The position numbers and the translations under genes are program-made. The notes beneath the pieces are model-generated. The model was not told the DNA's origin and ran no database searches. It saw only the letters and a program-made list of their open reading frames with translations. From Sediminispirochaeta bajacaliforniensis DSM 16054 (GTDB lineage: Bacteria; Spirochaetota; Spirochaetia; DSM-16054; Sediminispirochaetaceae), in NCBI RefSeq assembly GCF_000378205.1, contig NZ_KB899425.1, positions 1 to 64,000 on the forward strand: a stretch of DNA of 64,000 bases. The letters run 5' to 3'. This document shows, one piece after another, positions 6,074-27,577 of this stretch; position 1 is the first letter of the stretch, and every line of letters begins with the position of its first letter.

Positions 6074-7384
6074 ATGACTATGATCAAAAAATGGTTCAGC
6101 GATACATTTTTTAAGCGATTAATAAAAAATGTATCCGTTTTAATATCGGGCAATGTTGTTGCCTCGCTCTTTGGGATTATCTCCATGACCATAGCGATGA
6201 AATCCCTAGGGGCCCTTGCGTATGGATCCTTTATCCTGATTCAGACCTATATTCTTTCTATTGATGGATTGCTTAATTTCCAATCCTGGCAAGCACTTAT
6301 AAAATATGGATCTGATGCAATTTCGGAAAATAATCAATCCGAACTAAAAAAATATATCAAGTTAGGTTTCTTGCTTGATGTTGCCAGTGCTGTATTAGGC
6401 CTTCTTTGTGCCCTCTTGTTAGTGAAATTCGCCGGTAGGTGGTTCCGTTGGGATGGCACAACGCAACGTTTAGCCACGATCTATTCGCTCTTTATTATTT
6501 CTCACATTTACGGTACGCCAATCGGCATATTACGGCTTTTTAACCGCTTTTCGTTGATTTCTGTACAAAAAATTGCAATGTCGATAACAAAAGTAATAGT
6601 ACTGTTACTTTTGCTGATAAAAGGAATCAATCTTTATAACTACACGCTTGCGGTTTTGGCCATTGAAGTGTTCGGTAATTTATTGTTGGTTGCTTTCTCG
6701 TTGTATACGTTGAAGGCCGAGGGGCTGGAGGACTGGATGTATGGCTCCATAAAGAAGAGCAAGCAATTCCTTCAGTTTTCTATCTGGAGTAATCTCAATA
6801 CCACCATTGCCTTGCCCGTAAAAGAATTCGATAAAATACTTGTAGCAAAACTGATATCCAAAGAAGCTCTTGCTGTATACGATTTATTTAAGAAGATATC
6901 TCAAATCCTTTCGAAATTTGTTAATCCGATATATCAGGCGATCTATCCCGAATTGGCAAAGTTAATCGCGGATGGAAAGTTAAAAAAGGCTATCCATAGT
7001 TTCTTCAAGATTGTTATTATAATATTCAGCACTTCCATTGTTCCTGTGATAGTATTTACTTTTTTATCCAAAAATATTCTTGCCTATTTGTTTAGTAAAA
7101 ATTTTATTCACTACTGGTATGTTCTAAGTATGTATGTTTTTATTCGTATGATAGGAGTTTCTTTTACGGCCCTTGATCCTTTGGTTACAGCAATGGGCCT
7201 TATACAGCATAGGTTCTGGATTACCTGCATTGCAAATTGCTTGTATTTGGTGGTCGCTTGGTTTTTAGGCTCCCAGTACGGCCTTTTAGGCATTACCTTT
7301 GCTTTAGGTCTACAGTCGTTTATGACAATTGCGATAAAACTAATTATTGTTCAGCAAAAGAGTTCCAACAGTAATGAAAGATGA
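6074..7384 (+). CDS. Polysaccharide flippase, Wzx/MOP superfamily
   Basis: The protein has 436 residues with about 12 predicted hydrophobic helices, an architecture typical of Wzx/O-antigen flippases of the MOP superfamily. The N-terminus carries the conserved pattern LISGNVVASLFGIISMTIA followed by LGALAYGSFILI. It would flip undecaprenyl-diphosphate-linked oligosaccharide units across the inner membrane. No clear ribosome binding site is seen; ATG at 6074 or 6080 could be used. It begins 10 bases after the first Wzi-like gene. The only flippase of this type in the window, it probably serves the glycan built by the neighbouring transferases. Confidence 0.87.
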   Translation: MTMIKKWFSDTFFKRLIKNVSVLISGNVVASLFGIISMTIAMKSLGALAYGSFILIQTYILSIDGLLNFQSWQALIKYGSDAISENNQSELKKYIKLGFLLDVASAVLGLLCALLLVKFAGRWFRWDGTTQRLATIYSLFIISHIYGTPIGILRLFNRFSLISVQKIAMSITKVIVLLLLLIKGINLYNYTLAVLAIEVFGNLLLVAFSLYTLKAEGLEDWMYGSIKKSKQFLQFSIWSNLNTTIALPVKEFDKILVAKLISKEALAVYDLFKKISQILSKFVNPIYQAIYPELAKLIADGKLKKAIHSFFKIVIIIFSTSIVPVIVFTFLSKNILAYLFSKNFIHYWYVLSMYVFIRMIGVSFTALDPLVTAMGLIQHRFWITCIANCLYLVVAWFLGSQYGLLGITFALGLQSFMTIAIKLIIVQQKSSNSNER

Positions 7385-8351: not shown

Positions 8352-9483
8352 AATATTAGGCCTCTTATTAAATAATGAGCTCCGAACCGGCGGGCACCGT
8401 CGTTATTTGGAGCTCCTTTCGGGGCTTGCGGCAAAGGGACACAGCGTCCACGTTGTAGTGAATCAGGACATGCAACTCCCCTTTACCGTGGAATGCACGC
8501 TGCTGCCAATCTCCGTAAAAAGCGGCCGTAAAAGGGCTGTAGCGTTTCAAAAAAGCGTGCGCCAAAATGTCGGGAACATCACTGAGCGTGTTCCGGCTAT
8601 AGATCTTGTTGTGGTCTTTGGTGAAACACACTATTTTGCAGGGCTATTCCTCAAGAAATACTATCATGCAAAGCTGCTTTTCTCTTTTCGCAGCAATGTT
8701 ATCCAGGAGGACCTTTACAAGCTAAAAAGTGAGAACATGAACATAGGCGGCCGGTTAAAACTATGTGTGGAGATGGGAAAATATTGGTGGTATGAAAAGC
8801 TAATCGCCAAGAATGCCGATATGATCATATTCCAAAGCAGATACGATCAAGGTTCTTTTCTATCGAGAAATGGTTCTGCCGGTGAAAAGTGCAGGATAAT
8901 CGGTGGAAATATCTGTACACCGTGGTTTGCCGCAGAATTTTCTGGAGCAAACAAGAGCAGATCTCTTCGTAATATCCTTTATATCGGCAGCATCAACATG
9001 CGCAAGGGGATTCGCTTTTTGCTGGATGCCTTTGAATTGCTGTGTGCCGATAACAATGATCTTACACTGACTATAATCGGTTTCGGTCCCGATGAGGAGA
9101 AGTTACGAGATCGCGTTTTGCATTCTACCGCTCGCAAGCAGATTAATGTCGTGGGGAGATGCAGAGATCCCTTTCCCTACTTGCAGGACACGGATGTGCT
9201 GGTCGTCCCTTCATTGTTCGACAGCTATCCCAATGTCGTATTGGAGGCGATCTTCACGGAGACTGCGCTCCTCGCCTCACGAACCGGAGGCATTCCGGAG
9301 ATGCTGGAATACGACGAGCTCCTATTCGAGCCCGGATCGGCCGTGGCGATTCAAACGCGAATAGAAGGGCTGTATGATGAAAAAGCCTTTTCCCGTAATA
9401 AGGCCTTGGTAAAAAAACTTCGAGCCAAATTTGAATTCGACTGGGTCGCGGAATTCGAGAAGCTCATATATGCTATTCTGTAA
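8338..9483 (+). CDS. Glycosyltransferase family 4 (GT-B)
   Basis: The protein has 381 residues from the ATG at 8338 (MKKYRILG). The frame is open upstream but those 20 residues overlap the previous gene and are unlike the family. NNELRTGGHRRYLELLSGLA is the N-terminal acceptor domain. In the C-terminal domain, LYIGSINMRKGI, GFGPDEEKLRD and PSLFDSYPNVVLEAI form the GT4 donor-binding region with the EX7E-type glutamates. It is presumably cytoplasmic and retaining. It ends convergently with the next gene, with an 11-base overlap. Confidence 0.87.
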   Translation: MKKYRILGLLLNNELRTGGHRRYLELLSGLAAKGHSVHVVVNQDMQLPFTVECTLLPISVKSGRKRAVAFQKSVRQNVGNITERVPAIDLVVVFGETHYFAGLFLKKYYHAKLLFSFRSNVIQEDLYKLKSENMNIGGRLKLCVEMGKYWWYEKLIAKNADMIIFQSRYDQGSFLSRNGSAGEKCRIIGGNICTPWFAAEFSGANKSRSLRNILYIGSINMRKGIRFLLDAFELLCADNNDLTLTIIGFGPDEEKLRDRVLHSTARKQINVVGRCRDPFPYLQDTDVLVVPSLFDSYPNVVLEAIFTETALLASRTGGIPEMLEYDELLFEPGSAVAIQTRIEGLYDEKAFSRNKALVKKLRAKFEFDWVAEFEKLIYAIL

Positions 9484-10594
9484 CCCCTGCCAGCTTTTCC
9501 CAGACATCCAACATCTTTCGGGCACTTGGAACCCAGCTTTTGAAGCTTTCCGCATGCTGAAGCCCGCGTCGGATCAATTCCCGTCGTTGTGTCGTATCGG
9601 AAACAAGCTGTTCAAACAGGTTCGCCAGTTCGTGGAAATCCTGGGGATCTTTCATCACCAGAGCTGCATCCCCTACAATTTCGGGAATTGCGAAAATTGG
9701 CGAGGTGATGACCGGGCAACCACAGGCCATTGCTTCGATATTGGGCATGCCGAATCCTTCGGCCAATGATGGAAACACGAAAAGCTTTGCACTGTTGTAA
9801 AGTTGAACAGCCTCTTCTTCCTCTACAAACCCGGCAAGAATGACCCGATTTTCTATGTTGAGACGTTGTAGTTCGGCACGAACCCTTTCGTTTTCCCATC
9901 GTCCTCCACCAATGACCAGCTTCATCCCGGAGTCGGTCCGTTTTTTTATAAATTCGGCAAAGGCACGCAAAAGAGTCCAGGGGTTTTTCCGCTCTGAAAA
10001 ACGGCTTAAGTGAAAAATAAACGGTTCTCCGGGCTTCAGAAGCAAACGTTCCGGTGGCCGCCGCTCGTCCTCCGGCAGCAGCCGGTAGGCACTGTTAACA
10101 GCGTTATAGCAAACGCTCACCCGTTCCGGATGTACTCGAAAGTGCTCGACAAAGTAATTCTTGCTGGTTTGTGATACGGTAATAATATGGTCCATCTTCC
10201 GGGCATAGTATGGTACAAGTACTCTTTCGTGCAGCATTTCGGCATGTCCATAGAATTGGGGGACTAAAAGCTGCTCGACTCCATGGATGGTTGCCGTTTT
10301 CTTGCCCGCAGTGGCCCATATAGGGGCGAATACCGTCAGCGGAGTGAAATGAAGGACATTAAAATGGTGTCGGCGGAGAATTGCCGCCGCACGCAGGGGA
10401 TTGCGGGGAATGAGGATCTCTTCGTCCACTTGTTTGTAGATCGAATTCTCGCTTGTTTCGTAGTGGATGAACACAAAGCGGAGTTTGGTATTCAGTTCCA
10501 GGATATGCTTCATCATTTCATGCAAATGATGGCCGCTCCCGCTTGTCCAATTGTCAAGTTGCTTTGAAAATACACCTATGGTAGGGTGGTTCAT
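9473..10594 (-). CDS. Glycosyltransferase family 4, on the opposite strand
   Basis: The protein has 373 residues. The early DNWTSGSGHHLHEMM stretch and a VLHFTPLT segment are GT-B acceptor-side features; FHLSRFSERKNPWTLLRAF, GGGRWENERVRAEL and PSLAEGFGMPNIEAMACGCP are classical GT4 donor-site motifs with the EX7E glutamates. It is the only - strand gene in the 27-kb polysaccharide locus. It ends 11 bases inside the preceding gene and starts 68 bases from the divergent gene at 10663, so it has its own promoter. It was perhaps inserted or inverted later. Sugar specificity is unknown. Confidence 0.9.
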   Translation of the reverse strand: MNHPTIGVFSKQLDNWTSGSGHHLHEMMKHILELNTKLRFVFIHYETSENSIYKQVDEEILIPRNPLRAAAILRRHHFNVLHFTPLTVFAPIWATAGKKTATIHGVEQLLVPQFYGHAEMLHERVLVPYYARKMDHIITVSQTSKNYFVEHFRVHPERVSVCYNAVNSAYRLLPEDERRPPERLLLKPGEPFIFHLSRFSERKNPWTLLRAFAEFIKKRTDSGMKLVIGGGRWENERVRAELQRLNIENRVILAGFVEEEEAVQLYNSAKLFVFPSLAEGFGMPNIEAMACGCPVITSPIFAIPEIVGDAALVMKDPQDFHELANLFEQLVSDTTQRRELIRRGLQHAESFKSWVPSARKMLDVWEKLAGVTE

Positions 10595-10662: not shown

Positions 10663-11742
10663 ATGGCTAAGATTACCGTGCTGTCTATCTATGATCGTAT
10701 TGCCTGCTTTCACACCTTACGGCCTTTCCTTCTTTATCGTGATCAAAAACTTTTCGATTACACAAACTCTGTTGATTTTTGCTTGCAGCGTGATCGTAAT
10801 CGGATTCTCGTTATGGTTCGCTGGTTTCTTAAACCCGACCGGGTCGATATGGAGGTGATGCGTCGCCTTCGTGATAAATATGATCGCATCATTTTTTTTC
10901 ATGATGATGCCGGCGGAGGGATACCCCGTGCACAGGTGTTGCCCTATGTAGACCGCTTTTATCAGAAAGCACTATTCCGGGATCGTTCTCTATACCAGCG
11001 TTCTCTCTACGGAAAGGAACTTTACTCCGACTATTTCCATCGCGAGCATGGTGTTGATGATCCGGACCCGATAACAAGGGCGGCGGTAGAAGATGCCGAA
11101 CAATTAAAGAAACTAAGGCTTTCGTGGAATATCGGTATCGGTCAGTTCCCCAAAAGAAAGTACCGACAGCGTTTTGCCGTGGCTATGGCACGTCTGGTGG
11201 ATCTCAAGCTTGTGAGAGCCTTTCATTCCCCTGTCCGCCGTGTCGCTTTTTCCAAGCTTTTCTCTGAGGAACGTGATATCGATGTACACGCACGCCTGGG
11301 ATTGGTAAAGCAACCCAGCCTTGCGGAGCACCGCCGACTTATTTTACAAAAGATAGAGGGGGATCCTCGTTTTCTCACAGGTGAGGTTGGTCAGCGCCAA
11401 TACAATCACGAATTGTCCAGGTCCCGAATAGTCCTCTCCCCCTTCGGCTGGGGTGAGCTCTGTTTTCGGGACTTCGAAGCGGTTCTTTCCGGTGCGGTCT
11501 TGCTCAAACCGGATATGAATCATTTGGAGACCTGGCCCGATATATTTGTTGCTGGTGAAACCTATATCCCTTTCGCCTGGGACGCAAAAGACCTGTTGGA
11601 AAAAGTAGATGCGATGCTGACGGATGATACCTTTTGCCGACGTATTGCTCAAAACAGCTATACTGCCTATCATGATCAGCTACAAAGACTTGATGAGCGA
11701 TTTGAAATCATACTCCAAGATATAGTATCCGGGGAGGGGTAA
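10663..11742 (+). CDS. Glycosyltransferase family 1-like protein
   Basis: The protein has 359 residues; the start has AGAGG about 8 bases upstream. The N-terminal half is unusual, rich in Arg, Tyr and Asp. The C-terminal part has SPFGWGELCFRDFEAVLSGA followed by LLKPDMNHLETWPD, a pattern seen in family-1-like transferases with a PF13524-type C-terminal domain. No transmembrane helix is seen. It is first in the + strand run that follows the divergent glycosyltransferase. The next gene, a CDP-alcohol phosphatidyltransferase family member, starts 6 bases after its stop, so the two are probably cotranscribed. Donor unknown. Confidence 0.68.
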   Translation: MAKITVLSIYDRIACFHTLRPFLLYRDQKLFDYTNSVDFCLQRDRNRILVMVRWFLKPDRVDMEVMRRLRDKYDRIIFFHDDAGGGIPRAQVLPYVDRFYQKALFRDRSLYQRSLYGKELYSDYFHREHGVDDPDPITRAAVEDAEQLKKLRLSWNIGIGQFPKRKYRQRFAVAMARLVDLKLVRAFHSPVRRVAFSKLFSEERDIDVHARLGLVKQPSLAEHRRLILQKIEGDPRFLTGEVGQRQYNHELSRSRIVLSPFGWGELCFRDFEAVLSGAVLLKPDMNHLETWPDIFVAGETYIPFAWDAKDLLEKVDAMLTDDTFCRRIAQNSYTAYHDQLQRLDERFEIILQDIVSGEG

Positions 11743-11747
11743 TTTCC

Positions 11748-12476
11748 ATGACCCATATTTCAATGAAAGAGATCAGAGATTCGCTCCCGGAAGAAAAGAA
11801 CCGTGCCGATTCTCTTTGGACTCGTTATATTCTTAGGCCGCTTTCGGTACCCGTTGCCTGGCTTTGTTTACGTTGGGGGCTACGGGCCAATATTGTTTCG
11901 TATCTTTCAGCCCTTATTTGCGTGTTTGCCGCTCTTCTGTTTGGATCGGCTTCCTTGGGCTGGGCGATTATTGGGGCTCTTCTTTTTAATGTGTTTGCTG
12001 TTCTTGATTGTGCCGATGGAAACATGGCGCGAGCCACTGGTACTACCGGGCCATATGGAGCATGGGCCGATGCAATCGGCGGATATGTGGCCTATGTTAC
12101 GGTCTTGTTAAGCCTCGGCTATGCTGCCGCCGTTCGAAACGCACTTTTTTTTGCGTGGGAGCCCAAGGGTAATGTCTGGGTATTACTTGGGGGAGTAGCC
12201 GCCGCCTCTAATATTCTTATGCGGCTTGCCTTCCAAAGCTACCGAAATATTGCTCCTGAAGGAAAGGCGGAAGCAAAAAAGTCAATCGGTTTGGAAAAAC
12301 TCCTGAGTGAAAATCTGGGTGTTACCGGGGTGTTGATGCCAGCGCTTTTTGTGGCCCTTCTTGCCGGAGGGCTGGGATATATTATGATTTTTTATACGGT
12401 TTTCTATGGGTTGGGATGCGTACTGGTCCTCCTTAAATTGATTCGGAAGGTAGAGCATGTTTCGAGAAAGAAATGA
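11748..12476 (+). CDS. CDP-alcohol phosphatidyltransferase family protein with altered signature
   Basis: The protein has 242 residues with several membrane helices. The family signature is D-x2-D-G-x2-A-R-x8-G-x3-D-x3-D. Here D87, D90, G91, A94, R95, G104 and D108 are in register, but position 112 is Gly, where the fourth Asp (the catalytic base) should be. The family transfers phospho-alcohol groups from CDP-linked donors. In a locus that also encodes CMP-aminoethylphosphonate synthesis (24956-25690), a role in transferring AEP phosphonate to the glycan or a lipid is an attractive inference. Its ATG follows the preceding gene by 6 bases; its end overlaps the next gene by 20 bases. Confidence 0.82.
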   Translation: MTHISMKEIRDSLPEEKNRADSLWTRYILRPLSVPVAWLCLRWGLRANIVSYLSALICVFAALLFGSASLGWAIIGALLFNVFAVLDCADGNMARATGTTGPYGAWADAIGGYVAYVTVLLSLGYAAAVRNALFFAWEPKGNVWVLLGGVAAASNILMRLAFQSYRNIAPEGKAEAKKSIGLEKLLSENLGVTGVLMPALFVALLAGGLGYIMIFYTVFYGLGCVLVLLKLIRKVEHVSRKK

Positions 12477-13863
12477 GACCTACATGCTGCTTTTTGTGGT
12501 GGTCGATACCTTATCAACCATCCTTGCCTTTTGCGCCGCAGTTGCCGTTCGTTTTATCATTCAGGAAGCAAATCTATTCGAGTTCTATGCCATCGATCTT
12601 CGGGAATATATGTATATAGGCCTGGTTCTTGCTTCTTCGCAGGTGATGGTCTTCTATTTTATGGATTTGTATCGTCCGGGGAAGGTTGGCCTGGTAACCG
12701 ATGAGTTTAATCGGGTAGTACTGGGGACAATCGTCACCATCTTCATGGCGCTGGGTGTTATTTTCTTTCTCAAGACCCATCGATATAGTCGTCTGGTCGT
12801 ACTCTATTTCGGAATTCTGAATGTCGCTTTTGTTTCCCTCGGCAGGGCTATTGCCAGATTCTTCATTAAGAAAATGCTCTTGAAAGGCCGGCGTATACGC
12901 CTTATTCTGGTTCTCGGTACCGGCAGAACCGCAAAGCAGTTCGAAGAGGTAATTCAACGAAACCGGCTTTACGGCTATCTGGTCAAGGCCTTTGTCCGGC
13001 TCCCTGAAGAGGGAGAGGTAAAGGTCGAAAACGATAAAATCCTTGGTTCGTTTGAGGACATTCCCCGGCTCCTAACCGAGATCAGGCCTCATCACGTTAT
13101 CTTTGCATGTGATTCCACCAGCAGTGATATGCTCCAAAGGGCAATACAGATGTGCAATCATGAAGGAATCCATATGCATGTGATACCCAGTTTCAGCGAA
13201 TTGATTACTTCAAAGGGCCGGCTTGAGAGCCTTGAAGGAATTCCTCTCATCACTTTGCGCGATATCCCTGCTCGAAGGGGCTTTAATCGTTTTTTTAAGC
13301 GTTTGTTTGATATTATCTTTTCCCTGTTGTTTATCATCCTTTTTTCTCCCTTTTACATCATTATTGCTCTGGCGATCAGGCTTACATCAAAAGGGCCTGT
13401 CTTCCTTTCACAGGAGCGTGTTGGACTCGACAACAAGTTATTCAAGGTACTGAAATTTCGTACCATGTCTGTGCAACAGCCGGGGGATTCCGATATCATC
13501 TGGACCACCAAGAACGATCCCCGAGTAACACCTGTTGGTCGAATCTTGCGAAAATTGTCCCTTGACGAAACCCCGCAGTTTTTTAACGTATTTACGGGAA
13601 CGATGTCGGTCGTCGGCCCCAGACCGGAGCGCCCCTATTGGGTCGAACAATTTAAAGAGCGCTATACCGGCTATATGCAGCGTCACGGCATGAAGGCCGG
13701 TATCACCGGATGGGCTCAAGTCAACGGCCTTCGCGGCGATACCTCCATCGAGGAACGGGTGGCCGCCGATATCTATTACATTGAGAACTGGTCGATTCTG
13801 CTCGATCTAAAGATTATTCTGCTTACCCCTTTTAAAAGTGTTATCGACAGGAATGCCTATTAG
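12457..13863 (+). CDS. Polyprenyl-phosphate sugar-1-phosphate transferase (first of two)
   Basis: The protein has 468 residues: four N-terminal membrane helices, a central CoA-binding-like/Rossmann domain (LVLGTGRTAKQFEEVI), then a catalytic bacterial sugar transferase domain. The latter has the membrane re-entrant segment FDIIFSLLFIILFSPFY, then KFRTM, the catalytic LDETPQFFNV Asp-Glu pair, and MSVVGPRPE. Such enzymes (WbaP/WcaJ/EpsE type) start glycan synthesis by moving sugar-1-phosphate from a nucleotide sugar to undecaprenyl phosphate. The start overlaps the preceding gene by 20 bases, with GGAAGG upstream. The next gene begins right after its stop. Confidence 0.92.
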   Translation: MFRERNETYMLLFVVVDTLSTILAFCAAVAVRFIIQEANLFEFYAIDLREYMYIGLVLASSQVMVFYFMDLYRPGKVGLVTDEFNRVVLGTIVTIFMALGVIFFLKTHRYSRLVVLYFGILNVAFVSLGRAIARFFIKKMLLKGRRIRLILVLGTGRTAKQFEEVIQRNRLYGYLVKAFVRLPEEGEVKVENDKILGSFEDIPRLLTEIRPHHVIFACDSTSSDMLQRAIQMCNHEGIHMHVIPSFSELITSKGRLESLEGIPLITLRDIPARRGFNRFFKRLFDIIFSLLFIILFSPFYIIIALAIRLTSKGPVFLSQERVGLDNKLFKVLKFRTMSVQQPGDSDIIWTTKNDPRVTPVGRILRKLSLDETPQFFNVFTGTMSVVGPRPERPYWVEQFKERYTGYMQRHGMKAGITGWAQVNGLRGDTSIEERVAADIYYIENWSILLDLKIILLTPFKSVIDRNAY

Positions 13864-14973: not shown

Positions 14974-15044
14974 TCCAAAGCGGAATCCATTTTCTCTTGT
15001 GAAATGGCCCGCCATACGATAAGATGCCGATAAGGAATAACGAC

Positions 15045-16688
15045 ATGAAGAAATATTTTAGTGCCCTATGTGCAATTATGTTCTGCCAGATCATCTTGTC
15101 TCCAATCTGGGCTATGGATTTTACCATGATGGGAGAGGATGAGGATTGGCTTCCTCCTGCGGGAGAAGAATACCTGGCTTTTAACTTCGCCGGTTTTCTT
15201 ACGGCGGAGAAGCGAGAGGAATTGTTGGACGATCAGGCGGATCTTCCGAGCTTCTTCGACGAAGAGCGGCTCAGTTTCGATTATCGTACTCAGTTATTTC
15301 AGATGTTCATCGATGGATCGCTACTCGATGACGGAACGTACAGTGAACAGGAGCCCTATCTGGGGGGAAGATACTTCTACCTCAATGATGCCTATCTCAA
15401 AACCAACCTCGATCGGTTTCAGCTCAAGGTTGGGCAGGGCCCCCATCACGATGTGGTTGATACCCCCTATAGCCTCTTTATCTCCTCGAACGATTTTTCC
15501 GTGCTTCATGCCGAGATCGACTACGACGGGGATTTCTTCTTTTACAAGACCCGCTGGGTCAGCATGAACAACGACAGTTCGCAGATCTATTATGGATCGG
15601 ATGATGATTGGAGTAGTATGACGACTACTACATGGCCGGACGCTGACCCTCCAGATGGTGAGACCTACTGGCTCGACAAGGGGATGAATTTCAAGGTCTA
15701 CGGTTTCAACCTCGGCGAGGGGTGGCGGGTCGGATTCGAGGATGTAGTGGTCTATCTCGGCCGCTCCTTTGATGCCAACTATTTTTTCAATCCCATTCCG
15801 CAGTATTTTCTCCAGTTGATCACCAGCGAGGACGGAAATCCCTGGGTACAGGCCGGAAATACCAAGAGCATGATGGGCTTTTTTGTCGATGTAACCCGCG
15901 ATGATTGGGGGGCGGAGACACAGCTTCTGATTGACGATATAAACCTAAGTTTTCTTCCCTTTGTGCCCGACCGCAGCTTCAAGGACAAGATTGCCTGGAA
16001 TATAGGGGGATGGAAGGACTTCAGTTTCGGTACCATGGGTTTCCACCATGCCGGAGCCACCAAATACACCTTTGAATCGACCCGGACCATTGAAAGCGAC
16101 GGTAGCTGGGGAGATGTCGGATACGTGGATGTTCCTTACAGCATTCTTCCCTACGAGTATGCCTACTATCCGGTAAACGAATATACCTTGAAGAACGGAG
16201 AGCAAATGGCCATCCCCTACGAGGACCTCTATGCCGGGTACAAATACGGGGAAAACAACCTCGCCTTTCTTGTCGATTACGAAAATCTGATGTTTGCCGG
16301 TACTCCTCAGGAATTTAAGCTATATGCCTCTTTCGAGTATGTGATGAACGGATCCAAGTCTCCTTCCAACCCCTGGCATGAATACGATAGCCCGCGTAAT
16401 TCTGATATCGAGGATTCTGCCTGGTGTATGTTCACCGGAGCCCCTATCGAGTATGTCTTCAGGGCAAAGGCGAACGCCCGTAAACCGATCGGCGACTTTA
16501 CCGTGCTGATGGAGGTGCAGGCCGGTTATGTTATCAATGGCGCAGAACTGATCGAGGTTGATGCAAACTATGAAGATTATAACACAATCGATTGGACCGA
16601 ACCGAAGATCTATGTACCGCAGAATGGAAACAATTTTCCGATTTTTGGGGTCACCGTCGGGTTCAATTATTCCTGGCGGCTTAAGTAG
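15045..16688 (+). CDS. Wzi-like outer-membrane beta-barrel protein (second of three)
   Basis: The protein has 547 residues from the ATG at 15045, which has AAGGAA 8 bases upstream; an in-frame start at 15024 lacks a box. The signal peptide is AMFCQIILSPIWA. The mature protein is acidic and strand-rich (FYLNDAYLKTNLDRFQLKVG, VGFEDVVVYLGRS, ETQLLIDDINLS) and ends with FNYSWRLK. The layout (LKVGQGP segment, then a long series of strands with LLIDD) resembles the Wzi family, but similarity is weaker than for the gene at 4657. It lies between a glycosyltransferase and the GtrA gene. Role in anchoring or exporting polysaccharide is inferred. Confidence 0.62.
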   Translation: MKKYFSALCAIMFCQIILSPIWAMDFTMMGEDEDWLPPAGEEYLAFNFAGFLTAEKREELLDDQADLPSFFDEERLSFDYRTQLFQMFIDGSLLDDGTYSEQEPYLGGRYFYLNDAYLKTNLDRFQLKVGQGPHHDVVDTPYSLFISSNDFSVLHAEIDYDGDFFFYKTRWVSMNNDSSQIYYGSDDDWSSMTTTTWPDADPPDGETYWLDKGMNFKVYGFNLGEGWRVGFEDVVVYLGRSFDANYFFNPIPQYFLQLITSEDGNPWVQAGNTKSMMGFFVDVTRDDWGAETQLLIDDINLSFLPFVPDRSFKDKIAWNIGGWKDFSFGTMGFHHAGATKYTFESTRTIESDGSWGDVGYVDVPYSILPYEYAYYPVNEYTLKNGEQMAIPYEDLYAGYKYGENNLAFLVDYENLMFAGTPQEFKLYASFEYVMNGSKSPSNPWHEYDSPRNSDIEDSAWCMFTGAPIEYVFRAKANARKPIGDFTVLMEVQAGYVINGAELIEVDANYEDYNTIDWTEPKIYVPQNGNNFPIFGVTVGFNYSWRLK

Positions 16689-18627: not shown

Positions 18628-19528
18628 AGCATCCGAAATGAATGGACTGTCGATTGTCATCCCTGCCTATAACGAGGAAAAGGCCATAGTAGAGACCATC
18701 GAACACGTGACTGGGGTTATGGAGCCGTCCCAAACGCCTTATGAGGTGGTTCTGGTAAACGACGGCTCTACGGATAAGACTGCGGTTATTATTCAATCGT
18801 ATCTCCATGATCATCCCCAGCTTGCCGAGCGGGTTCGCCTTGTCGAGCATGCGCACAATCGTGGATATGGGGCCAGCCTGAAGACCGGTATTCGAGCGGC
18901 AAAGAATGAAGCAATCTGTATTACCGATGCCGACGGAACCTATCCAAATAATCGCATTCCCGAGCTGTTCGGAATGTTCCGTGAACGGGGATTAGATATG
19001 GTGGTAGGTCGGCGGAGTTTCAAAAAATTACCCACGCTGACCAAACCGGCAAAATGGTTTATTACCAAGCTTGCAAGTTTTCTGGTTGACGATAAAATTC
19101 CTGATATAAATTCGGGATTGCGGATATTTCGGCGTTCGATTGCCGTGAAATTTTTTCCGATCATCTGCGATGGTTTTAGTTTTACAACCACAATTACCCT
19201 TGCGATGTTTTCAAATGGATATCAGGTTCATTATGAACCAATTGAATACTTCAAGCGGAAAGGAAAATCGAAAATAAGGCCGATTCGGGACACCATCAAT
19301 TTTATCCAGCTTATTATTCGTACCGTTGCCTATTTTAACCCGCTGAAAGTATTCGTTCCTGTGAGTCTCTTGCTTTTCCTTGTTGGGTTCTTGCTTTTCA
19401 TCATCGGACGGATGGGGATTTTCTTCGCCGAAACGCCGAACGATACCATCACGATACTCTTTGTGGGTGGTATACAGGTTTTGGCTACCGGAGTGATTGC
19501 AGATATGATAGCCAAGAAAAAAGATTGA
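18620..19528 (+). CDS. GtrB/DPM1-like polyprenyl-phosphate glycosyltransferase (GT2)
   Basis: The protein has 302 residues from the ATG at 18620, overlapping the preceding stop by 8 bases. The GT-A domain has LSIVIPAYNEEKAIVETIEH, VNDGSTDKT, HNRGYGASLKTGIRAA and TDADGTYP, the pattern of dolichol-phosphate mannosyltransferases and GtrB. Two C-terminal membrane helices (VFVPVSLLLFLVGFLLFIIG and a following one) match GtrB topology. It would charge undecaprenyl phosphate with one sugar, GtrA would flip it, and the GT-C enzyme would transfer it. Confidence 0.9.
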   Translation: MSEASEMNGLSIVIPAYNEEKAIVETIEHVTGVMEPSQTPYEVVLVNDGSTDKTAVIIQSYLHDHPQLAERVRLVEHAHNRGYGASLKTGIRAAKNEAICITDADGTYPNNRIPELFGMFRERGLDMVVGRRSFKKLPTLTKPAKWFITKLASFLVDDKIPDINSGLRIFRRSIAVKFFPIICDGFSFTTTITLAMFSNGYQVHYEPIEYFKRKGKSKIRPIRDTINFIQLIIRTVAYFNPLKVFVPVSLLLFLVGFLLFIIGRMGIFFAETPNDTITILFVGGIQVLATGVIADMIAKKKD

Positions 19529-19539
19529 TGGAATGAGAG

Positions 19540-20955
19540 ATGAATCGTAGGCGCAGGGTTTTTGTCCGTAATGCTCTTATGGCCATAGACGGTATTGTGA
19601 CCTTTTTTTCTTTCATAGTTGCTTACTATGTTCGTAACACGCCGTTTTTTTTCGGTCTTAAGGCCCTGTTTCCCTTTTCGAACTATTTCCCCTATCTTCT
19701 CATTTCACTGGTTTTTTGGTTGTTGCTCCTTCGCTTCTTCAATAATTATGCCTTTCTCGGGGGAGGAAAGAAGTCGTGGCGTAGGATTTTTGTCAATTTA
19801 CTGCCGGTGGAATTGGTCGGACTTGCTCTTCTTACCATGATCCTTTTCTTCCTTCGTGATCAGATCATTAGTAGGACCTTTCTTCTCTTTTTTGCGGCCA
19901 TTAATTATCTTATGCTTCTGATGACCAAGATATTAACCATGGCCTATTTTCTGCGGGAAGGAAAGATAAAGAAGTACCATCGCCGGGCTTTGTTGGTTGG
20001 CAATAAAAGATCTGTCGATTACTTCCTTTCCACTGAAAAACAGATGCCGGAGCTGTTGTTCGACATCATCACACAATCTGAGTTCATTATCAACGCAGAT
20101 GCCGTTTTAAACGAGAAGGAGCAAGAGGAACTGTCCGAGGCAATTCTTGATTTTATCTGGAACAATGTGGTCGACGAGGTGATCTTTGCCTATTCTGATT
20201 TGAACCTTGCCTCCATCAGTTCGCTCGTTACCGAATGCGGACGAATGGGCATATCGGTCAACGTTGTTCTGGATACCTCCAACATTGAGTTTCGCAAAAG
20301 TGAGGTTGATGTTGTAGGACCATTCAATATTATCACGTTCCAAACCTTCGACTATTCCCCGGTTCAACGTTTGGTAAAGAGACTTACCGACATTAGCGCC
20401 GGTATTATCGGAACTCTTATATGTTCATTGCTTTTTGTTGTTATTGCTCCTCTGATTAAGATAACTAGTCCCGGGCCCATACTTTTCAGGCAAGTAAGGA
20501 AAGGAAAGAACGGTAGAAATTTCGTACTTCTTAAATTTCGGACCATGTGCCTCGATGCGGAAGATCAGAAAAGGTCGTTACTGGATAAAAACGAGATGCA
20601 AGGCCAAATTTTCAAAATGAAATATGATCCGAGGATAACCCCCTTGGGAAATTTTCTGCGTAGGACAAGCCTTGATGAATGGCCGCAGTTCATCAATATT
20701 CTGCGCGGTGATATGTCTCTTGTTGGGACCCGGCCGCCAACGGTAGAGGAGTTCGGCTCCTACAGAAATTACCATCGTCGGAGGCTCAGTGTGAAACCCG
20801 GTTTGACTGGCCTTTGGCAGGTGAGTGGGCGTAACGATATTTCCGATTTCGAGGAGATCGTTAAACTTGATACCTGGTATATCGATCACTGGTCGATATG
20901 GCTTGATCTTAAGATTATTCTAAAAACGTTTCTGGTTTTGTTTCGAGGGAGATAA
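19540..20955 (+). CDS. Polyprenyl-phosphate sugar-1-phosphate transferase (second of two)
   Basis: The protein has 471 residues with four or five N-terminal helices, a Rossmann-like middle ([13 protein letters not shown]) and a C-terminal catalytic domain. The latter includes [25 protein letters not shown], the catalytic [10 protein letters not shown] Asp-Glu pair and [26 protein letters not shown] is typical. It belongs to the same superfamily as the protein at 12457, but the sequences differ enough to suggest different sugars. Two initiating enzymes in one locus suggest two lipid-linked glycans, or alternative starter sugars. It is the last gene before the phosphonate genes. Confidence 0.92.
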
Positions 20956-20959
20956 TCCT

Positions 20960-20995
20960 CCCCGTCTGGATTATTACATCCGGCCGGGGTATACT
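20960..20995 (+). promoter_or_regulatory. Hairpin and candidate promoter ahead of the phosphonate genes
   Basis: CCCCGTCTGGAT (20960-20971) and ATCCGGCCGGGG (20978-20989) form a 12-base inverted repeat with one mismatch and one G-T pair around a 6-base loop. It is directly followed by TATACT (20990-20995), a good -10. A weak -35 (TGGATT, 20967-20972) lies 17 bases upstream, inside the hairpin. This may be a promoter with an overlapping operator, or an end-of-transcript hairpin lacking a T-run. Confidence 0.4.
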
Positions 20996-21032
20996 CATTA
21001 CCTTGATAAAGAAAGAACAACAGGACTATGTC

Positions 21033-22655
21033 ATGACAAAGAAAACCACACAGTTTCGGAATTTACTTGCCTCCGATCGTCTCGAATTTATCCTCGAGGC
21101 GCACAACGGTATCAGTGCGAAAATCGTCGAAGAGGCTGGTTTCAAGGGGATCTGGGGAAGCGGCCTTTCCCTTTCTGCTCAGTACGGGGTACGTGACAAC
21201 AATGAAGCAAGCTGGACTCAGGTTCTGGACATGCTCGAGTTTATGTCCGATGCCACCACGATACCCATCTTGCTCGACGGCGATACCGGTTACGGCAACT
21301 TCAACAATATGCAGCGGCTGGTGCGTAAGCTCGAACAGCGTGATATTGCCGCGGTTTGTATTGAGGATAAGCTTTTTCCCAAGACCAATAGTTTTATTAA
21401 AGGGACTGCTCAGCCTTTGGCTGACATCGAGGAGTTCTGCGGTAAGATCAAGGCCGGAAAGGATGCCCAGGGCGACGATGATTTCTCCATCATTGCACGG
21501 GTCGAGGCCTTTATTGCGGGCTGGGGGCTGAAGGAGGCAATGCGCCGGGCGGAAGCCTATCGGAAGGCCGGAGCAGATGCTATTCTCATGCACAGTGCTC
21601 TGTCGGTACCCGATGAGATCCTTGCTTTTAAAAAGGAGTGGGGCGACCGGCTTCCGGTGGTCATCGTTCCGACAAAGTACTATGCTACCCCTACGGATCA
21701 GTTCAGAGAGGCCGGCATTTCCATCGCCATCTGGGCAAACCACATGATACGAACGGCCATTGCCTCGATGCAGAAGAATGCGGCCACCCTTATGGCCGAA
21801 GAGTCTCTCATGGCCATAGAGGATTCCATCGCTCCGGTAAAGGAAATATTTCGCCTTCAGGGGGCGGCTGAGCTGCAGGAGGCTGAAAAACGCTATCTTC
21901 CCAAACGGGGAAAGGCGGTTCGGGCCGTGATCCTTGCCGCCAGCCGCGGTAAGGAGCTTGGTGAACTTACCGAAAAACGGCCTAAGGCGATGGTCCCGGT
22001 CTCCGGCCAGCCCCTTCTTGCCCATGTGGTGGACGGTTACAATTCCGTCGGCGTGAAGGATATCACCGTTGTCAGGGGATATGCAAAAGAGACAGTCAAT
22101 CTTTCCAATATAGATTATGCGGATAACGACAACTTTGAGAGCACCGGAGAGCTTGTCAGCCTTTCCTGCGCCCTCAAGTCCCTTGCCTCGGAAGATACCG
22201 GCAAGGAGTTGGTCGTTTCCTACGGTGATGTCCTTTTTAAGAAGCATATCCTCCAACTACTGCTCGAAAGCCATGCCGATTTTTCCATCGTGGTGGATAC
22301 CAACTGGAGTGAAAGTGTTAATAAGGGCAGGTTTGCCGACTATGTTCAGTGCAGCCGCCCCTACGGCCGCGATGCCTTCGGCCAGGAAATTTCATTAACC
22401 GAGATGAGTGAACATCTGCCCGAAAAGAGGACCCATGGCGAATGGACCGGGTTTCTTAAGGTCTCTGCCGATCACCGTCTTCTCCTTGGCAAGCTTGTCG
22501 AAAACCTTACGGTGGAAGATCCGTATGCGCGGATGAGTGATCTGCTCAACGCTTTGGTTGCCAACGGTGAGCGTGTGAGGGTTATCTATACGACTGGTTA
22601 CTGGCTCGATATCGACACGCTGGAAGATGTCGTGCTTGCCGGAAACCTCTTCTAA
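21033..22655 (+). CDS. Phosphoenolpyruvate mutase fused to a nucleotidyltransferase domain
   Basis: The protein has 540 residues from the ATG at 21033; a TTG at 21003 would add ten. Residues 1-290 are PEP mutase: DGDTGYGNF (82-90) binds Mg and [11 protein letters not shown] (111-121) is the PepM signature that separates it from isocitrate lyase-like enzymes. It forms the C-P bond, turning PEP into phosphonopyruvate. Residues 297-540 are a RmlA/LicC-type nucleotidyltransferase, but the usual GxGTRL loop reads AASRGKELG (302-310); PK (317-318) is kept. The standalone cytidylyltransferase at 24956 has the normal loop. The fused domain's role is therefore uncertain. The Ppd gene follows after 15 bases. 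Confidence 0.95.
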
Positions 22656-22670
22656 CACCGGAGGGCTGTA

Positions 22671-23816
22671 ATGATTGAAGCCGATCTTTTTGTGCGCCAG
22701 GCTTTAGAACGGGGGTTCGGCCTTTGGAGCGGGGTTCCCTGCTCCTACCTGAAACCCTTTATCAACCATGTTATCGATGATCCTGCCGTTCGCTATATCC
22801 CGGCGGTCAACGAGGGGGATGCCGTTGCCATTGCTTCCGGAAGTCATCTTGCGGGAATTCGGGGTGTGGCCATGTTCCAAAACTCCGGGCTGGGAAATGC
22901 GGTAAATCCGCTGACCAGCTTGAACAATACCTACCGTATTCCGGTCTTGCTGATCGTTACCCTCAGGGGAGAACCTGGGGCTCCGCCCGATGCGGTACAA
23001 CACGGCCTCATGGGGCCGATAACTACCGCCATGCTTGATGTGCTTCAGATTCCATGGGAGTACTTTCCAGACGAGGAATCAAAAGTGAGCGAGGCCCTCG
23101 ATCGGGCCATTACCTCCATGAATGGCACATCTCTTCCTTATGCTTTGGTGATGCGAAAGGGATCGGTGGCAAAGAAGGCGCTGAAAAGCAGCATGGAAAT
23201 TCGTGCCCCGAAAGTTGGCCGGCGTGGCGGTGCCTTCTTCGAGACCGAGGCAAACGCAAGCCGTAGCGACATGCTCAAGGCTATTCTTGATGCAGCCGGC
23301 GATGATGTACCGATTCTCGGGACCACCGGTTATACCGGACGAGAGCTTTATGCGATCAACGACCGATCGGGCAACTTTTATATGGCTGGTTCCATGGGCT
23401 GTGTTTCAAGCATCGGCCTCGGTATCTCCACGGTACGATCGGGAAGGGTTATTGCCGTGGACGGAGACGGAGCGATCCTCATGCGTATGGGGGCTCTTGC
23501 GACCAACGGCTACCAGCGTCCCGAAAACCTTGTGCATATCGTCCTCGACAACGGCATGCACGAATCTACCGGCGGTCAGGCCACCGTTTCCGCTTCCGTT
23601 GATCTCTGTGCCGTAGCCGCCGCCTGTGGTTATCGTAATGTTTTTGAAACCAGGAGTCCGGAAGAGCTTCGGGACCTCTTGTCCCAACATGATCTTTCCG
23701 GCATCACCTTTATCAGGGCTCGGACGATTCCCGGCAGTCCGGAAAACCTGCCCAGACCTACGCAGCGGCCGGAGGAGCTTTCAAAGCGCTTTGCCGCTTT
23801 CTTACAAAACCGATAA
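22671..23816 (+). CDS. Phosphonopyruvate decarboxylase
   Basis: The protein has 381 residues, normal for Ppd/AepY. It is a single-chain thiamine-diphosphate enzyme. NEGDAVA near residue 48 carries the cofactor-activating Glu, and GDG (265-267) with Asn294 (VLDNGMHEST) forms the metal/diphosphate-binding motif. It decarboxylates phosphonopyruvate to phosphonoacetaldehyde, pulling the unfavourable PEP mutase equilibrium forward. GGAGG lies 7 bases before the ATG. It is flanked by pepM and the transaminase in a tight operon, so the assignment is secure over sulfopyruvate decarboxylase. Confidence 0.94.
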   Translation: MIEADLFVRQALERGFGLWSGVPCSYLKPFINHVIDDPAVRYIPAVNEGDAVAIASGSHLAGIRGVAMFQNSGLGNAVNPLTSLNNTYRIPVLLIVTLRGEPGAPPDAVQHGLMGPITTAMLDVLQIPWEYFPDEESKVSEALDRAITSMNGTSLPYALVMRKGSVAKKALKSSMEIRAPKVGRRGGAFFETEANASRSDMLKAILDAAGDDVPILGTTGYTGRELYAINDRSGNFYMAGSMGCVSSIGLGISTVRSGRVIAVDGDGAILMRMGALATNGYQRPENLVHIVLDNGMHESTGGQATVSASVDLCAVAAACGYRNVFETRSPEELRDLLSQHDLSGITFIRARTIPGSPENLPRPTQRPEELSKRFAAFLQNR

Positions 23817-23844
23817 TGCGCGATAGCGAAGGAGAAATGAGCGT

Positions 23845-24945
23845 ATGACGAAAAAGAGACCTGTTATTCTGCTTAACCCCGGCCCGGTAACCATCAGCGA
23901 CCGGGTGAGGGAGAGCCTGCAGAGAGAAGATATGTGCCACCGTGAGCCTGATTTTGCAGCTTTGATGCTTGATGTCAAGAAACGGCTTGCTGCGATCTAT
24001 GAAGGTGGAAGCGAACATTTCGAGGCCCTGGTGATGACCGGAAGCGGAACCTGTGCCGTTGAGGCGATGATTTCCAGCCTTCTTCCTTCCGACGGAAAGC
24101 TGCTGGTGATTTCAAACGGGGTCTACGGCGAGCGAATTGCGTCTATGGTCAAGACCCATGGAAAGCAGATGGTGCTGGTAAAAAGTCCCTGGCCCGATCC
24201 GATGAATCTTGCCGAGGCGGAGCGGCTTTTGAAGGAAGATCCTTCCATTACCCATGTTTCCGCTATTCACAACGAAACCACCACCGGGCGGCTTAACGAC
24301 CTTGATGCTCTTGGTGCCTTGTGTGTCACATACAATAAGCCGATGCTCCTGGATGCGGTCTCCAGTTTTGGCGGCGAACGAATCGAGCTTGAAAAATGGA
24401 ACGTTGCCGCCCTTGCTTCCACGGCAAACAAGTGTATCCACGGTATCCCCGGTCTCAATTTCGTTCTTGTCAGAAAAGATCTTCTGGAACAGGGCAAGAG
24501 TGCCGCCGCCACCCTGTATCTCGATCTTTTTGCCTATTACCAAAAACAGAAAGAGGGTTTTTCTCCCTTTACCCAGGCGACCCATGTTGCGGTCGCACTC
24601 CAGGAAGCCTTGAAGGAGTTCGAAGAGGCAGGCGGCTGGAAGACGCGGAACGAGCGTTACCGGGAACTTTCGGTTCGTATTCGTGCCGAACTTGATGCCA
24701 TGGGTATCCGCCGCTTCTTAAAAGAAGATGAATACAGTTCCATGCTTTCGAGCTTTCACCTGCCCGAGGGCTACAGCTATGAAGAGCTCCACGATGAGCT
24801 GAGAAAAGAAAACTTCATCATCTATGCTGGACAGGGCGGACTCTTTCATTCGATTTTCCGCATCGCCAATATGGGTGATCTTTTTGATGCGGATATCGAT
24901 AGGCTTTTGGCTGTTTTCCGTCGGCTCATGGATTCCCGGAAATAG
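23845..24945 (+). CDS. phnW: 2-aminoethylphosphonate transaminase (biosynthetic direction)
   Basis: The protein has 366 residues, standard for fold-type I class V aminotransferases. LLNPGPV at the start, TGSGTCAVEAM, LLDAVSSFGG with Asp170 and the PLP lysine K196 in STANKCIHGIPG match AEP:pyruvate aminotransferases. Degradation pathways use it in the reverse direction, but here it follows PEP mutase and Ppd, so it should aminate phosphonoacetaldehyde to 2-aminoethylphosphonate. No phosphonatase (PhnX) gene is nearby. A transaminase fused to a cytidylyltransferase occurs in some relatives; here the two are separate genes 10 bases apart. Confidence 0.93.
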   Translation: MTKKRPVILLNPGPVTISDRVRESLQREDMCHREPDFAALMLDVKKRLAAIYEGGSEHFEALVMTGSGTCAVEAMISSLLPSDGKLLVISNGVYGERIASMVKTHGKQMVLVKSPWPDPMNLAEAERLLKEDPSITHVSAIHNETTTGRLNDLDALGALCVTYNKPMLLDAVSSFGGERIELEKWNVAALASTANKCIHGIPGLNFVLVRKDLLEQGKSAAATLYLDLFAYYQKQKEGFSPFTQATHVAVALQEALKEFEEAGGWKTRNERYRELSVRIRAELDAMGIRRFLKEDEYSSMLSSFHLPEGYSYEELHDELRKENFIIYAGQGGLFHSIFRIANMGDLFDADIDRLLAVFRRLMDSRK

Positions 24946-24955
24946 GACGTTTCCG

Positions 24956-25690
24956 ATGCCGATGGGAGTAAAAACGGCGGTGATTCTTGCCGCCGGCCGG
25001 GGCACCCGCCTCGGAAAACGCGGTCTTGAAGCGCCTAAAGGGTTTTTGCAGATCGGAGAAAAGCCGATTATCCAGGAATCCCTGGACCGGCTCAAGGCCG
25101 CCGGGGTTGAAAAGGTTGTTATCGTTACCGGGCATTTGGCCCATTTCTACGAAAAACTTGCAGCAGATTCCGGCGGTTTTGTCAGAACCGTCCATAATCC
25201 CGACTATGCCGATTCCGGTTCCATGTACAGCCTCTATCAGGCCCGCAAGGTCCTTGGGGACGCGGCCTTTTTCCTTCTTGAATCGGATCTTATCTACGAA
25301 AGCCGTGCCCTGGCGGTGCTGAAGGAGCAGTCTGAATCCGATTGTATCCTCATGTCGGGTTTTACCGGCAGCGGAGACGAGGTGTGGATCTATGCTCCCG
25401 AGGGCTATCTTGTCGATATGGGAAAGGTGCGGGAAACCTTGACTGGGCCTCCTTGCGGGGAACTTGTTGGGGTCAGCCTCCTCTCGCCCGAGGGCTACAG
25501 TCGCCTCTGTATCGAGGCGGAACGGCTTTTTTCAGAAAGCCTCAAGGTCGAATATGAGACAGCCCTTGTTGCCTCTTCCCGGAAAAAGCCGATCGCCTGT
25601 CACCTCGTTTCGGATCTGGTCTGGAGTGAGATCGACGACGAGTCTCATCTTCAGCGGGCGAAGACGCGTATCTATCCCCGATTGTCTTAG
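24956..25690 (+). CDS. PntC-like CTP:2-aminoethylphosphonate cytidylyltransferase
   Basis: The protein has 244 residues from the ATG at 24956 (AGGA about 8 bases upstream). AVILAAGRGTRLG (8-20) is a canonical nucleotidyltransferase loop, followed by APKGFLQIG with the conserved Lys, NPDYADSGSMYSLYQAR and FLLESDLIYE with the metal-binding Asp. The family includes LicC (phosphocholine) and PntC, which makes CMP-AEP from CTP and AEP in Treponema. Its place as last of the AEP genes supports PntC function. The product would be the donor for tailoring glycans or lipids. Phosphocholine-type specificity is the main alternative. Confidence 0.85.
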   Translation: MPMGVKTAVILAAGRGTRLGKRGLEAPKGFLQIGEKPIIQESLDRLKAAGVEKVVIVTGHLAHFYEKLAADSGGFVRTVHNPDYADSGSMYSLYQARKVLGDAAFFLLESDLIYESRALAVLKEQSESDCILMSGFTGSGDEVWIYAPEGYLVDMGKVRETLTGPPCGELVGVSLLSPEGYSRLCIEAERLFSESLKVEYETALVASSRKKPIACHLVSDLVWSEIDDESHLQRAKTRIYPRLS

Positions 25691-25711: not shown

Positions 25712-27511
25712 ATGCCTTGTACAGTACAAAAACAAAGGAGAGCAAACCTATGGCGGGAAAAGAATGTTAAGGTGATGTTTCTCGCTTCACTTGTCTTCTT
25801 TTTTTCCGTTTCCCGGCTTTTTGCCTTTAGAACCTACGGCACCGATTCGCCTCAGGTTGTCGAGCTGCAGCGACTTTATACCCTGGACGGCAGGGCCTTT
25901 CCCATCTCCGGCTTCCCCCTCTCCGGGGAAGATCTTAGAAAGCTTACTGTGACGATTTCCCGTGATAGCGACGACCCTGCCCTCCGGGAAAAAGCAAGAC
26001 AGATCCTCAACTCGCTTGAACTTCCGAAAGAGGGTGAGGCCATCTACGGCCAGGGCTTTGATGCCGGTTTCGAGGCCAATGTCCATGATTCCTACGCCTG
26101 GGATCCCTATCGTGCTTTCTATAACGAATTTGTCGATTATCCTGCCATGCTCGATTACAGCCTCTTTGCGGAGCAGAAAAGCTCTTCCGGCTATTCAGGC
26201 ATGGAAATTTCCGCCTTTGTGCAGCGGGAATATGAAGATGGCAACATGCCGGAGGTCAACCTTATTTCCGGTACCTCCGATGACCCCATCAAGATGGAGA
26301 ACTACTTTATCTCTTCGGGATACTTTGCCTGGGAGGGAGACCATCTTTCCCTGCGTCTGGGCAGGTCGCCGGTCCACTATGGAGACTCCCGCTTTTCGTC
26401 ATTTCTTCCCTCCGATCGCCTGCCGTTCCTGGATGCCTTCGAATACCGCTATAAAGTCGGTCCCTTGCGGATGGTCAGCTATTTCGGGACTCTCGAAAAT
26501 CGCGAGTCGGAAGAAGAGGCTGCCTTTTTTGCCGGTAAAGGACTGGAAATAGACGGAACGGACGATTACCTTACGGTGGATGAGGATGGTAATTTGGTGT
26601 GGGATTATGCTGATCAGGGTACCGCCGATGAGGTTCTTGATGCGGCCTTCGCCCGGACCATCATTCTTAATTCCATGCACCGCTTTGTGTTGGAATTGCC
26701 GAAGTTCTCCTTCGGGGTGACCGCACATCTGTTGATTGCCCGTGAAAATAATGCCCTGCACATTGCCGACATCTTTCCGGTCTTCAGCTGGCATAACGGC
26801 AGTGTGGGAAGCAACAATATGAGCCTGCTTTTCGACGGGCTGTGGAATGTCACCCCCGGACTCGATTTGTACGCTCAGGCCGGATGGGACGATATCAATG
26901 CAACCGATCTGATCGGTATTCCCGACAAGGGATCGATTCCGACCATCGGGGCTTATCTTCTCGGCGCCGATTGGGAGGGAAATCTCAACCTTTCAGAAAA
27001 AACGCTTCCGATCGGTCTGATTACCGAGGTGGGAACGACCCACTATCTGTGGGGAAACTTCTATGCCTGGTCGGAGAAGCGAAAAGATGGAATTTACTTT
27101 GCCAGGGCCATCTATCGTTACCGTACCCAGAGCGGTGTTCATGCCATTCCCCTGACCAGCCCCTACGGGCCGGGTGCCACCTGGATCGAGGGAACCTTAA
27201 AGGTCGGTGGGAAGCAAGGCCTTTCCAGTGAGCTATTCTTTTCCTATCTTGATCACAACGAACTTGCATCCCTTATTTCGACGAATTATTACTCTTCCGA
27301 TGAGATAGAGGATGCGGACCATGTGCAAAGCATTGCCTCTGCCCTGACGTTTCGCTACGGTTTTCCTGTGGGAAAACGGTGGGAGAGTTCCCTCTACACG
27401 TCCCTGTGTTACTACAACTATGATGGTTTTTCTTGGCCCGAGCTTGTATTCGGGTGCAGGATCCGTGGGAGTCTGATATCTTCATTTATGGATACTTTCG
27501 AAGGGGAATGA
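25712..27511 (+). CDS. Wzi-like outer-membrane protein (third of three)
   Basis: The protein has 599 residues. AAAGGA lies just upstream of the ATG at 25712; ATG 25775 is an alternative that shortens the signal peptide. Hydrophobic residues LASLVFFFSVSRLFA form the export signal. The mature part is a beta-barrel: LSLRLGRSPVHYGDSRFSSF matches the Wzi pattern of a conserved strand with LGR, and NSMHRFVLELPKFSFGV and LYAQAGWDD are also Wzi-like. It closes the locus, 22 bases after the cytidylyltransferase, and is followed by a strong terminator, so it belongs to the same transcript as the phosphonate genes. Function inferred: surface glycan assembly. Confidence 0.75.
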   Translation: MPCTVQKQRRANLWREKNVKVMFLASLVFFFSVSRLFAFRTYGTDSPQVVELQRLYTLDGRAFPISGFPLSGEDLRKLTVTISRDSDDPALREKARQILNSLELPKEGEAIYGQGFDAGFEANVHDSYAWDPYRAFYNEFVDYPAMLDYSLFAEQKSSSGYSGMEISAFVQREYEDGNMPEVNLISGTSDDPIKMENYFISSGYFAWEGDHLSLRLGRSPVHYGDSRFSSFLPSDRLPFLDAFEYRYKVGPLRMVSYFGTLENRESEEEAAFFAGKGLEIDGTDDYLTVDEDGNLVWDYADQGTADEVLDAAFARTIILNSMHRFVLELPKFSFGVTAHLLIARENNALHIADIFPVFSWHNGSVGSNNMSLLFDGLWNVTPGLDLYAQAGWDDINATDLIGIPDKGSIPTIGAYLLGADWEGNLNLSEKTLPIGLITEVGTTHYLWGNFYAWSEKRKDGIYFARAIYRYRTQSGVHAIPLTSPYGPGATWIEGTLKVGGKQGLSSELFFSYLDHNELASLISTNYYSSDEIEDADHVQSIASALTFRYGFPVGKRWESSLYTSLCYYNYDGFSWPELVFGCRIRGSLISSFMDTFEGE

Positions 27512-27547: not shown

Positions 27548-27577
27548 AAAAAGCCGCCCGGCCGGGCGGCTTTTTTT
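27548..27577 (+). terminator. Strong intrinsic terminator ending the polysaccharide locus
   Basis: AAGCCGCCCGG and CCGGGCGGCTT form a perfect GC-rich stem at 27551-27572 followed by seven T. The upstream A-run makes it function in both directions, so it probably also ends transcription of the convergent gene whose stop is at 27610. Confidence 0.93.

Follow-up and report, generated by a model that had tools for sequence, protein, structure and literature searches.

Four genes predicted to direct the synthesis and activation of 2-aminoethylphosphonate (AEP) in Sediminispirochaeta bajacaliforniensis DSM 16054, namely pepM, ppd, aept, and pntC, form a head-to-tail, co-directional run at 21003-25690 (+) of the window, i.e., the whole 64,000-nucleotide stretch of DNA that was analysed (Table 1). 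The gaps between them measure 15-28 bases. The likely start of pepM-NT is the ATG at 21033, while that of pntC lies at ~24965, a longer ORF start at 24824 overlapping aept. The G+C content of the cassette is 53.7% versus 45.2% for the window (49% for the genome of the sister species S. smaragdinae), which is compatible with separate acquisition. The preliminary description had this run closed by one terminator. A strong 12-pair terminator is present (-21.4 kcal/mol, z -3.1), and one further gene, encoding a predicted exported protein, precedes it. Promoter scans of the sequence gave counts no higher than those in shuffles, and therefore no promoter is claimed.

Table 1. Features of the AEP cassette and the surrounding glycan locus (window positions)
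Feature	Coordinates	Strand	Evidence or remark
Wzi capsule-assembly protein	4657..6063	+	PF14052
Wzx-type flippase	6074..7384	+	PF01943
GT4 glycosyltransferase	9473..10594	-	PF00534
Glycosyltransferase paired with the 11748 gene	10663..11742	+	PF13524
CDP-alcohol-phosphotransferase-like membrane protein, candidate AEP transferase	11748..12476	+	PF01066, E 3e-7
Initiating glycosylphosphotransferase 1	12457..13863	+	Homologous to initiating enzyme 2 (~140 bits, phmmer, between families)
Predicted exported protein	15024..16688	+	No family match
GtrA-like flippase	16707-17132	+	PF04138
PMT_2/GT39-like transferase	17065-18627	+	PF13231
GtrB-like GT2	18611-19528	+	PF00535
Polyprenyl-phosphate hexose-1-phosphate transferase (initiating enzyme 2)	19540..20955	+	TIGR03025, 374.9 bits (cut-off 295.6)
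pepM-NT	21003..22655	+	PEP mutase domain ~21036-21905; C-terminal nucleotidyltransferase-fold domain ~21918-22652
ppd, phosphonopyruvate decarboxylase	22671..23816	+	TIGR03297
aept, 2-aminoethylphosphonate transaminase	23845..24945	+	TIGR03301
pntC, CTP:AEP cytidylyltransferase	24965..25690	+	phmmer match to 6pd1
Predicted exported protein, final gene of the run	25712..27511	+	No family match
Intrinsic terminator	27548..27575	+	12-pair stem and T run

Membership of the first three enzymes in their families was judged by curated NCBIfam cut-offs. The PEP mutase scores 384.9 bits against TIGR02320 (cut-off 319.6), carries the diagnostic EDKXXXXXNS motif, and matches the PEP mutase 1m1b with a phmmer E of 1.8e-127. 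Ppd reaches 405.8 bits against TIGR03297 (cut-off 312.5) and the AEP transaminase 378.1 bits against TIGR03301 (cut-off 360.8), the latter being the sole PhnW/AepZ exceeding the cut-off in its own genome. The closest solved relative of the fourth product is the T. denticola PntC-AEPT (6pd1; phmmer E 4.9e-45). The earlier claim of four adjacent AEP-pathway genes is therefore upheld, and the four assignments are supported by homology and conserved residues.

Rice et al. (2019) named PntC, demonstrated its formation of CMP-AEP, and gave the kinetics of the A. rimae and T. denticola enzymes (PMC6697681). In T. denticola PntC, alanine mutants of Arg15, Lys25, and Lys153 have <10% activity, while Glu104 and Glu196, both Asp in LicC, are proposed to lie at the AEP amine (PMC6697681). 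Direct alignment to 6pd1 shows that the PntC of the window keeps the equivalents of all five residues, with Glu at both amine-contact positions, and its motif GRGTRLGKRGLEAPK fits GXG(T/S)RX4-8PK; Arg15, Lys25, and Lys153 are invariant in 10/10 PntC sequences. Because these five tested residues are conserved, CMP-AEP is the best prediction for the product and AEP the favoured substrate. CMP-AEP as the end product, as originally put forward, is thus well supported by the catalytic and AEP-binding residues that this predicted PntC retains.

Approximately 60% of Ppm enzymes carry fused nucleotidyltransferase domains, and clusters that combine a fused nucleotidyltransferase with a separate one have been figured, T. 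denticola among them (PMC6697681). The pepM product of the window belongs with these: it is a PEP mutase, as first called, but the preliminary description left out that it is a 550-residue fusion with a C-terminal NTP_transf_3 domain (PF13714 and PF12804). The model of this domain (mean pLDDT 94) has PntC 6pd2 as its top PDB match (TM 0.79), followed by LicC, and the domain retains the nucleotidyltransferase fold and the metal ligands. The equivalents of Arg15, Glu104, and Glu196 are absent from it, and it was not filed as PntC. Residues were counted across 85 fused domains of spirochaetes, Nitrospira, Gammaproteobacteria, Myxococcales, and others, a set that is not an unbiased sample because it was collected with peptide patterns of PepM and ordered by resemblance to these proteins. 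Arg occupies the Arg15 position in 0/85 (Glu in 69, Ala in 12) versus 10/10 in PntC, Tyr or Phe stands at the Glu104 position in 85/85, and Pro, Ser, Ala, or His is found at the Glu196 position in most, the Lys153 region being left out of the counts as it does not align. The fused domains have a signature of their own (LAASRGxEL, VVRGY, DND, YGDVLF, and WLDID), and the Lys of PK, the Asp of YGD, and the Asp after a conserved Trp are invariant in all 85. Without the PntC Arg and both AEP-binding Glu residues, the fused domain is not simply a second PntC; as judged from the model and the alignments, it is a PntC relative by fold and not a PntC by residues. A loss of the Arg only where PntC is present was rejected, the Arg being missing in 85/85 with or without PntC.

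It is unlikely that the domain is a degenerate, inactive remnant of a cytidylyltransferase displaced by PntC. The absence of the catalytic Arg and of both AEP-binding Glu residues would fit such a remnant, but the domain shows strong conservation across phyla, keeps the fold, has an invariant set of its own (the Lys of PK, the YGD Asp, W-x-D, VVRG, and DN), and is the only evident activating candidate in lineages without a good PntC match. Its conservation indicates that it is under constraint and not decaying. The fused domain may instead represent a distinct, widely conserved family in which the catalytic Arg and the AEP pocket of the PntC fold have been swapped, a reading held at somewhat under even confidence. 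Its substrate could be a different phosphonate or nucleotide, or it could help to drive the unfavourable reaction of PepM; bacteria having both domains would then carry out two different nucleotidyl steps, and the fused domain would activate the phosphonolipid head group where PntC is missing. A search of open-access articles found no literature on the function of the PepM-fused PF12804 domain beyond Rice et al. (2019).

Spirochaetes have two PepM fusion architectures, one of ~440 residues and one of ~550 residues with the C-terminal NTP_transf_3 domain; the ~440-residue representative tested (L057) carries an N-terminal PF01467. In the pepM-NT loci of Nitrospira (within L123-L180, a set consisting mainly of Nitrospira loci), no AEP transaminase was detected close by and Ppd gave at most a weak match, suggesting that the phosphonate there is not AEP.

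The cassette sits in a glycan locus that includes genes for Wzx, Wzi, two initiating transferases, and glycosyltransferases, and a 22-gene block (2434-27511) is conserved gene for gene in S. smaragdinae SEBR 4228. In the latter, the glycan locus extends ~18 kb past the window start, with NeuB-like, NeuA-like, and Wzm/Wzt-like ABC exporter genes as judged by eye. Both initiating transferases reported earlier are borne out, one by TIGR03025 and the other by homology to it. Eight glycosyltransferases had been described as sharing the direction of the cassette, which does not hold for the GT4 enzyme on the minus strand, and the label “Wzi-like” fits the PF14052 protein only; the two predicted exported proteins have no Pfam or NCBIfam match. 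Homologues of both adjoin ppd, aept, and pepM in another genome, G375 (211 bits for the 15024-16688 protein and 147 bits for that of the final gene). The GtrA-like, GT39-like, and GtrB-like genes (16707-19528) can be grouped into what looks like a three-component periplasmic glycosylation module.

LicD (PF04991) has no match in the genome of the source strain or in that of S. smaragdinae and is ruled out as the AEP transferase by its absence. The genome harbors three genes of the CDP-alcohol-phosphotransferase family, one of which (11748-12476) lies within the glycan locus, and the best PDB match of its product by fold is AF2299 (4o6m). This protein departs from the four-Asp motif D-x2-DG-x2-AR-x8-G-x3-D-x3-D, in that the fourth Asp is replaced by Gly, which also occupies this position in 14/14 homologues. 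In canonical CDP-alcohol phosphotransferases, the fourth Asp is the proposed base. The glycosyltransferase encoded next to it has a homologue in the locus of 10 of the 12 other carriers, and in 8 of these the two genes are direct neighbours. The gene pair recurs in spirochaete glycan loci both with and without pepM (L101-L112); in G375, such a pair immediately adjoins ppd, aept, and a pepM that has the other architecture. Carriers of the family are enriched for pepM, which is present in 8/14 of them versus 60/379 other genomes (Fisher p 7e-4, with kinship ignored). The six carriers (6/14) without pepM weaken the idea of an AEP-only enzyme. The protein is the best candidate AEP transferase in the window, a candidate and not an assignment, and its role in AEP transfer is put forward tentatively, as rather less than an even prospect. 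In one genome without detected pepM, a nucleotidyltransferase fused to a class I/II aminotransferase (L112:3705-5516) occupies the same glycan locus as a pair of this type, an arrangement reminiscent of a separate activated head-group pathway.

Across the phylum, pepM is present in 68/393 genomes. Of 33 loci that combine pepM-NT with aept and have sufficient flanking sequence, 26 hold PntC alongside pepM-NT, ppd, and aept, five distinct genomes have a CDP-alcohol phosphotransferase without PntC, and two have both, the PntC match being weak. In relatives of the source strain, PntC and a CDP-alcohol phosphotransferase alternate in the slot after the transaminase; in Leptospiraceae (G092, G193, and G228), this enzyme and then a PAP2 phosphatase lie 3′ of aept. 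Spirochaete PntCs linked to pepM-NT score 299-386 bits against the PntC alignment, and no match above 68 bits was found genome-wide in the seven phosphotransferase-type genomes, some of which are incomplete. These alternatives suggest a glycan branch with PntC and a lipid branch with the phosphotransferase, the latter depending on the fused domain or an unrecognised enzyme. A phosphonolipid cluster with a CDP-alcohol phosphotransferase has been described in Nostoc (PMC5987646).

In the proposed pathway, PepM would convert phosphoenolpyruvate to phosphonopyruvate, Ppd would form phosphonoacetaldehyde, the transaminase would yield AEP, and PntC would produce CMP-AEP, from which a phosphotransferase would move the AEP group to a sugar hydroxyl or a lipid-linked intermediate of the surface glycan that this locus builds. 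We infer CMP-AEP in the cell, the transfer step, and the acceptor. It is probable that the four enzymes lead to CMP-AEP and the AEP group is transferred to a surface glycan of the same locus, with the PepM-fused domain being a structurally intact relative of nucleotidyltransferases whose active site differs. The AEP group most likely ends up as a surface decoration, in line with what has been published as the expectation for such gene clusters.

Alternatively, AEP could be placed on a membrane lipid and not on a polysaccharide, with CMP-AEP and diacylglycerol giving a phosphonolipid in a Kennedy-type reaction. The phosphotransferase and PAP2 genes 3′ of aept in Leptospiraceae form a lipid-making arrangement, Nostoc phosphonolipid clusters have such an enzyme (PMC5987646), and a CDP-alcohol-phosphotransferase-like gene lies within the window locus. 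This fate is improbable, as the gene 3′ of aept here is pntC, none of the window proteins tested was recognised as a PAP2 phosphatase, and the CDP-alcohol-phosphotransferase-like gene is 8.5 kb distant, paired with a glycosyltransferase, and devoid of the fourth Asp.

Elsewhere in the genome, a phosphonatase gene lies directly 3′ of genes for a binding protein, an ATPase, and a permease, which together look like a 2-AEP importer (L201:3844-8462; G000:C6:42000-58000), and thus AEP turnover is also possible. The source strain may both make and degrade AEP, unlike S. smaragdinae, which has no phosphonatase above the TIGR01422 cut-off. C-P lyase was rejected because no PhnJ was found, and a purely catabolic role of the transaminase was rejected because its gene lies between ppd and pntC and S. 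smaragdinae has no phosphonatase above the cut-off. That the pathway serves free AEP, another soluble phosphonate, or phosphorus turnover in place of surface decoration is very improbable: the phosphonatase (TIGR01422, 338.6 bits) adjoins an importer and the window transaminase might serve both directions, but PntC would be pointless for free AEP, S. smaragdinae retains the pathway without a phosphonatase above the cut-off, and the cassette is placed in a glycan locus.

The pathway, nucleotidyl activation, surface role, and spirochaete host favored here are all precedented (PMC6697681), and the same work cites 31P signals, recorded from whole cells of T. denticola and O. uli, that are consistent with phosphonates. 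The T. denticola Tde1415 PntC-AEPT and Pnt (phosphonyl tailoring) clusters (PMC6697681; 6PD1/6PD2) have PepM, Ppd, AEPT, and PntC in common with the window, as well as a PepM-fused nucleotidyltransferase beside a separate PntC, glycan-type neighbours, and a spirochaete host. In Sediminispirochaeta, however, PntC and AEPT are separate genes, the extra domain of PepM is a C-terminal NTP_transf_3 whereas the T. denticola-type relative (L057) has an N-terminal CTP_transf_like domain (PF01467), and the genome has no LicD. AEP is likewise expected on a surface polysaccharide in the AEP-modified capsule of Bacteroides fragilis (cited in PMC6697681), which belongs to another phylum; the product of the window locus is a predicted one. 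Phosphonolipid clusters (Nostoc, PMC5987646; Leptospiraceae) share PepM, Ppd, AEPT, and a nucleotidyltransferase but have a phosphotransferase in place of PntC 3′ of the transaminase. LicC/LicD phosphocholine decoration also uses CTP to activate a small zwitterion before its transfer to the surface, whereas the window PntC has Glu and not Asp at both amine-contact positions and LicD is absent.

This analysis places a full predicted CMP-AEP pathway within a glycan locus of a culturable and free-living genus of spirochaetes, in which the way CMP-phosphonates attach to surfaces becomes testable. Two features merit follow-up, the conserved non-PntC domain on PepM and the transferase of the AEP group. 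The residue counts show that the nucleotidyltransferase domain carried by many PEP mutases does not simply duplicate PntC, a result relevant to the view that fused and separate domains share one function.
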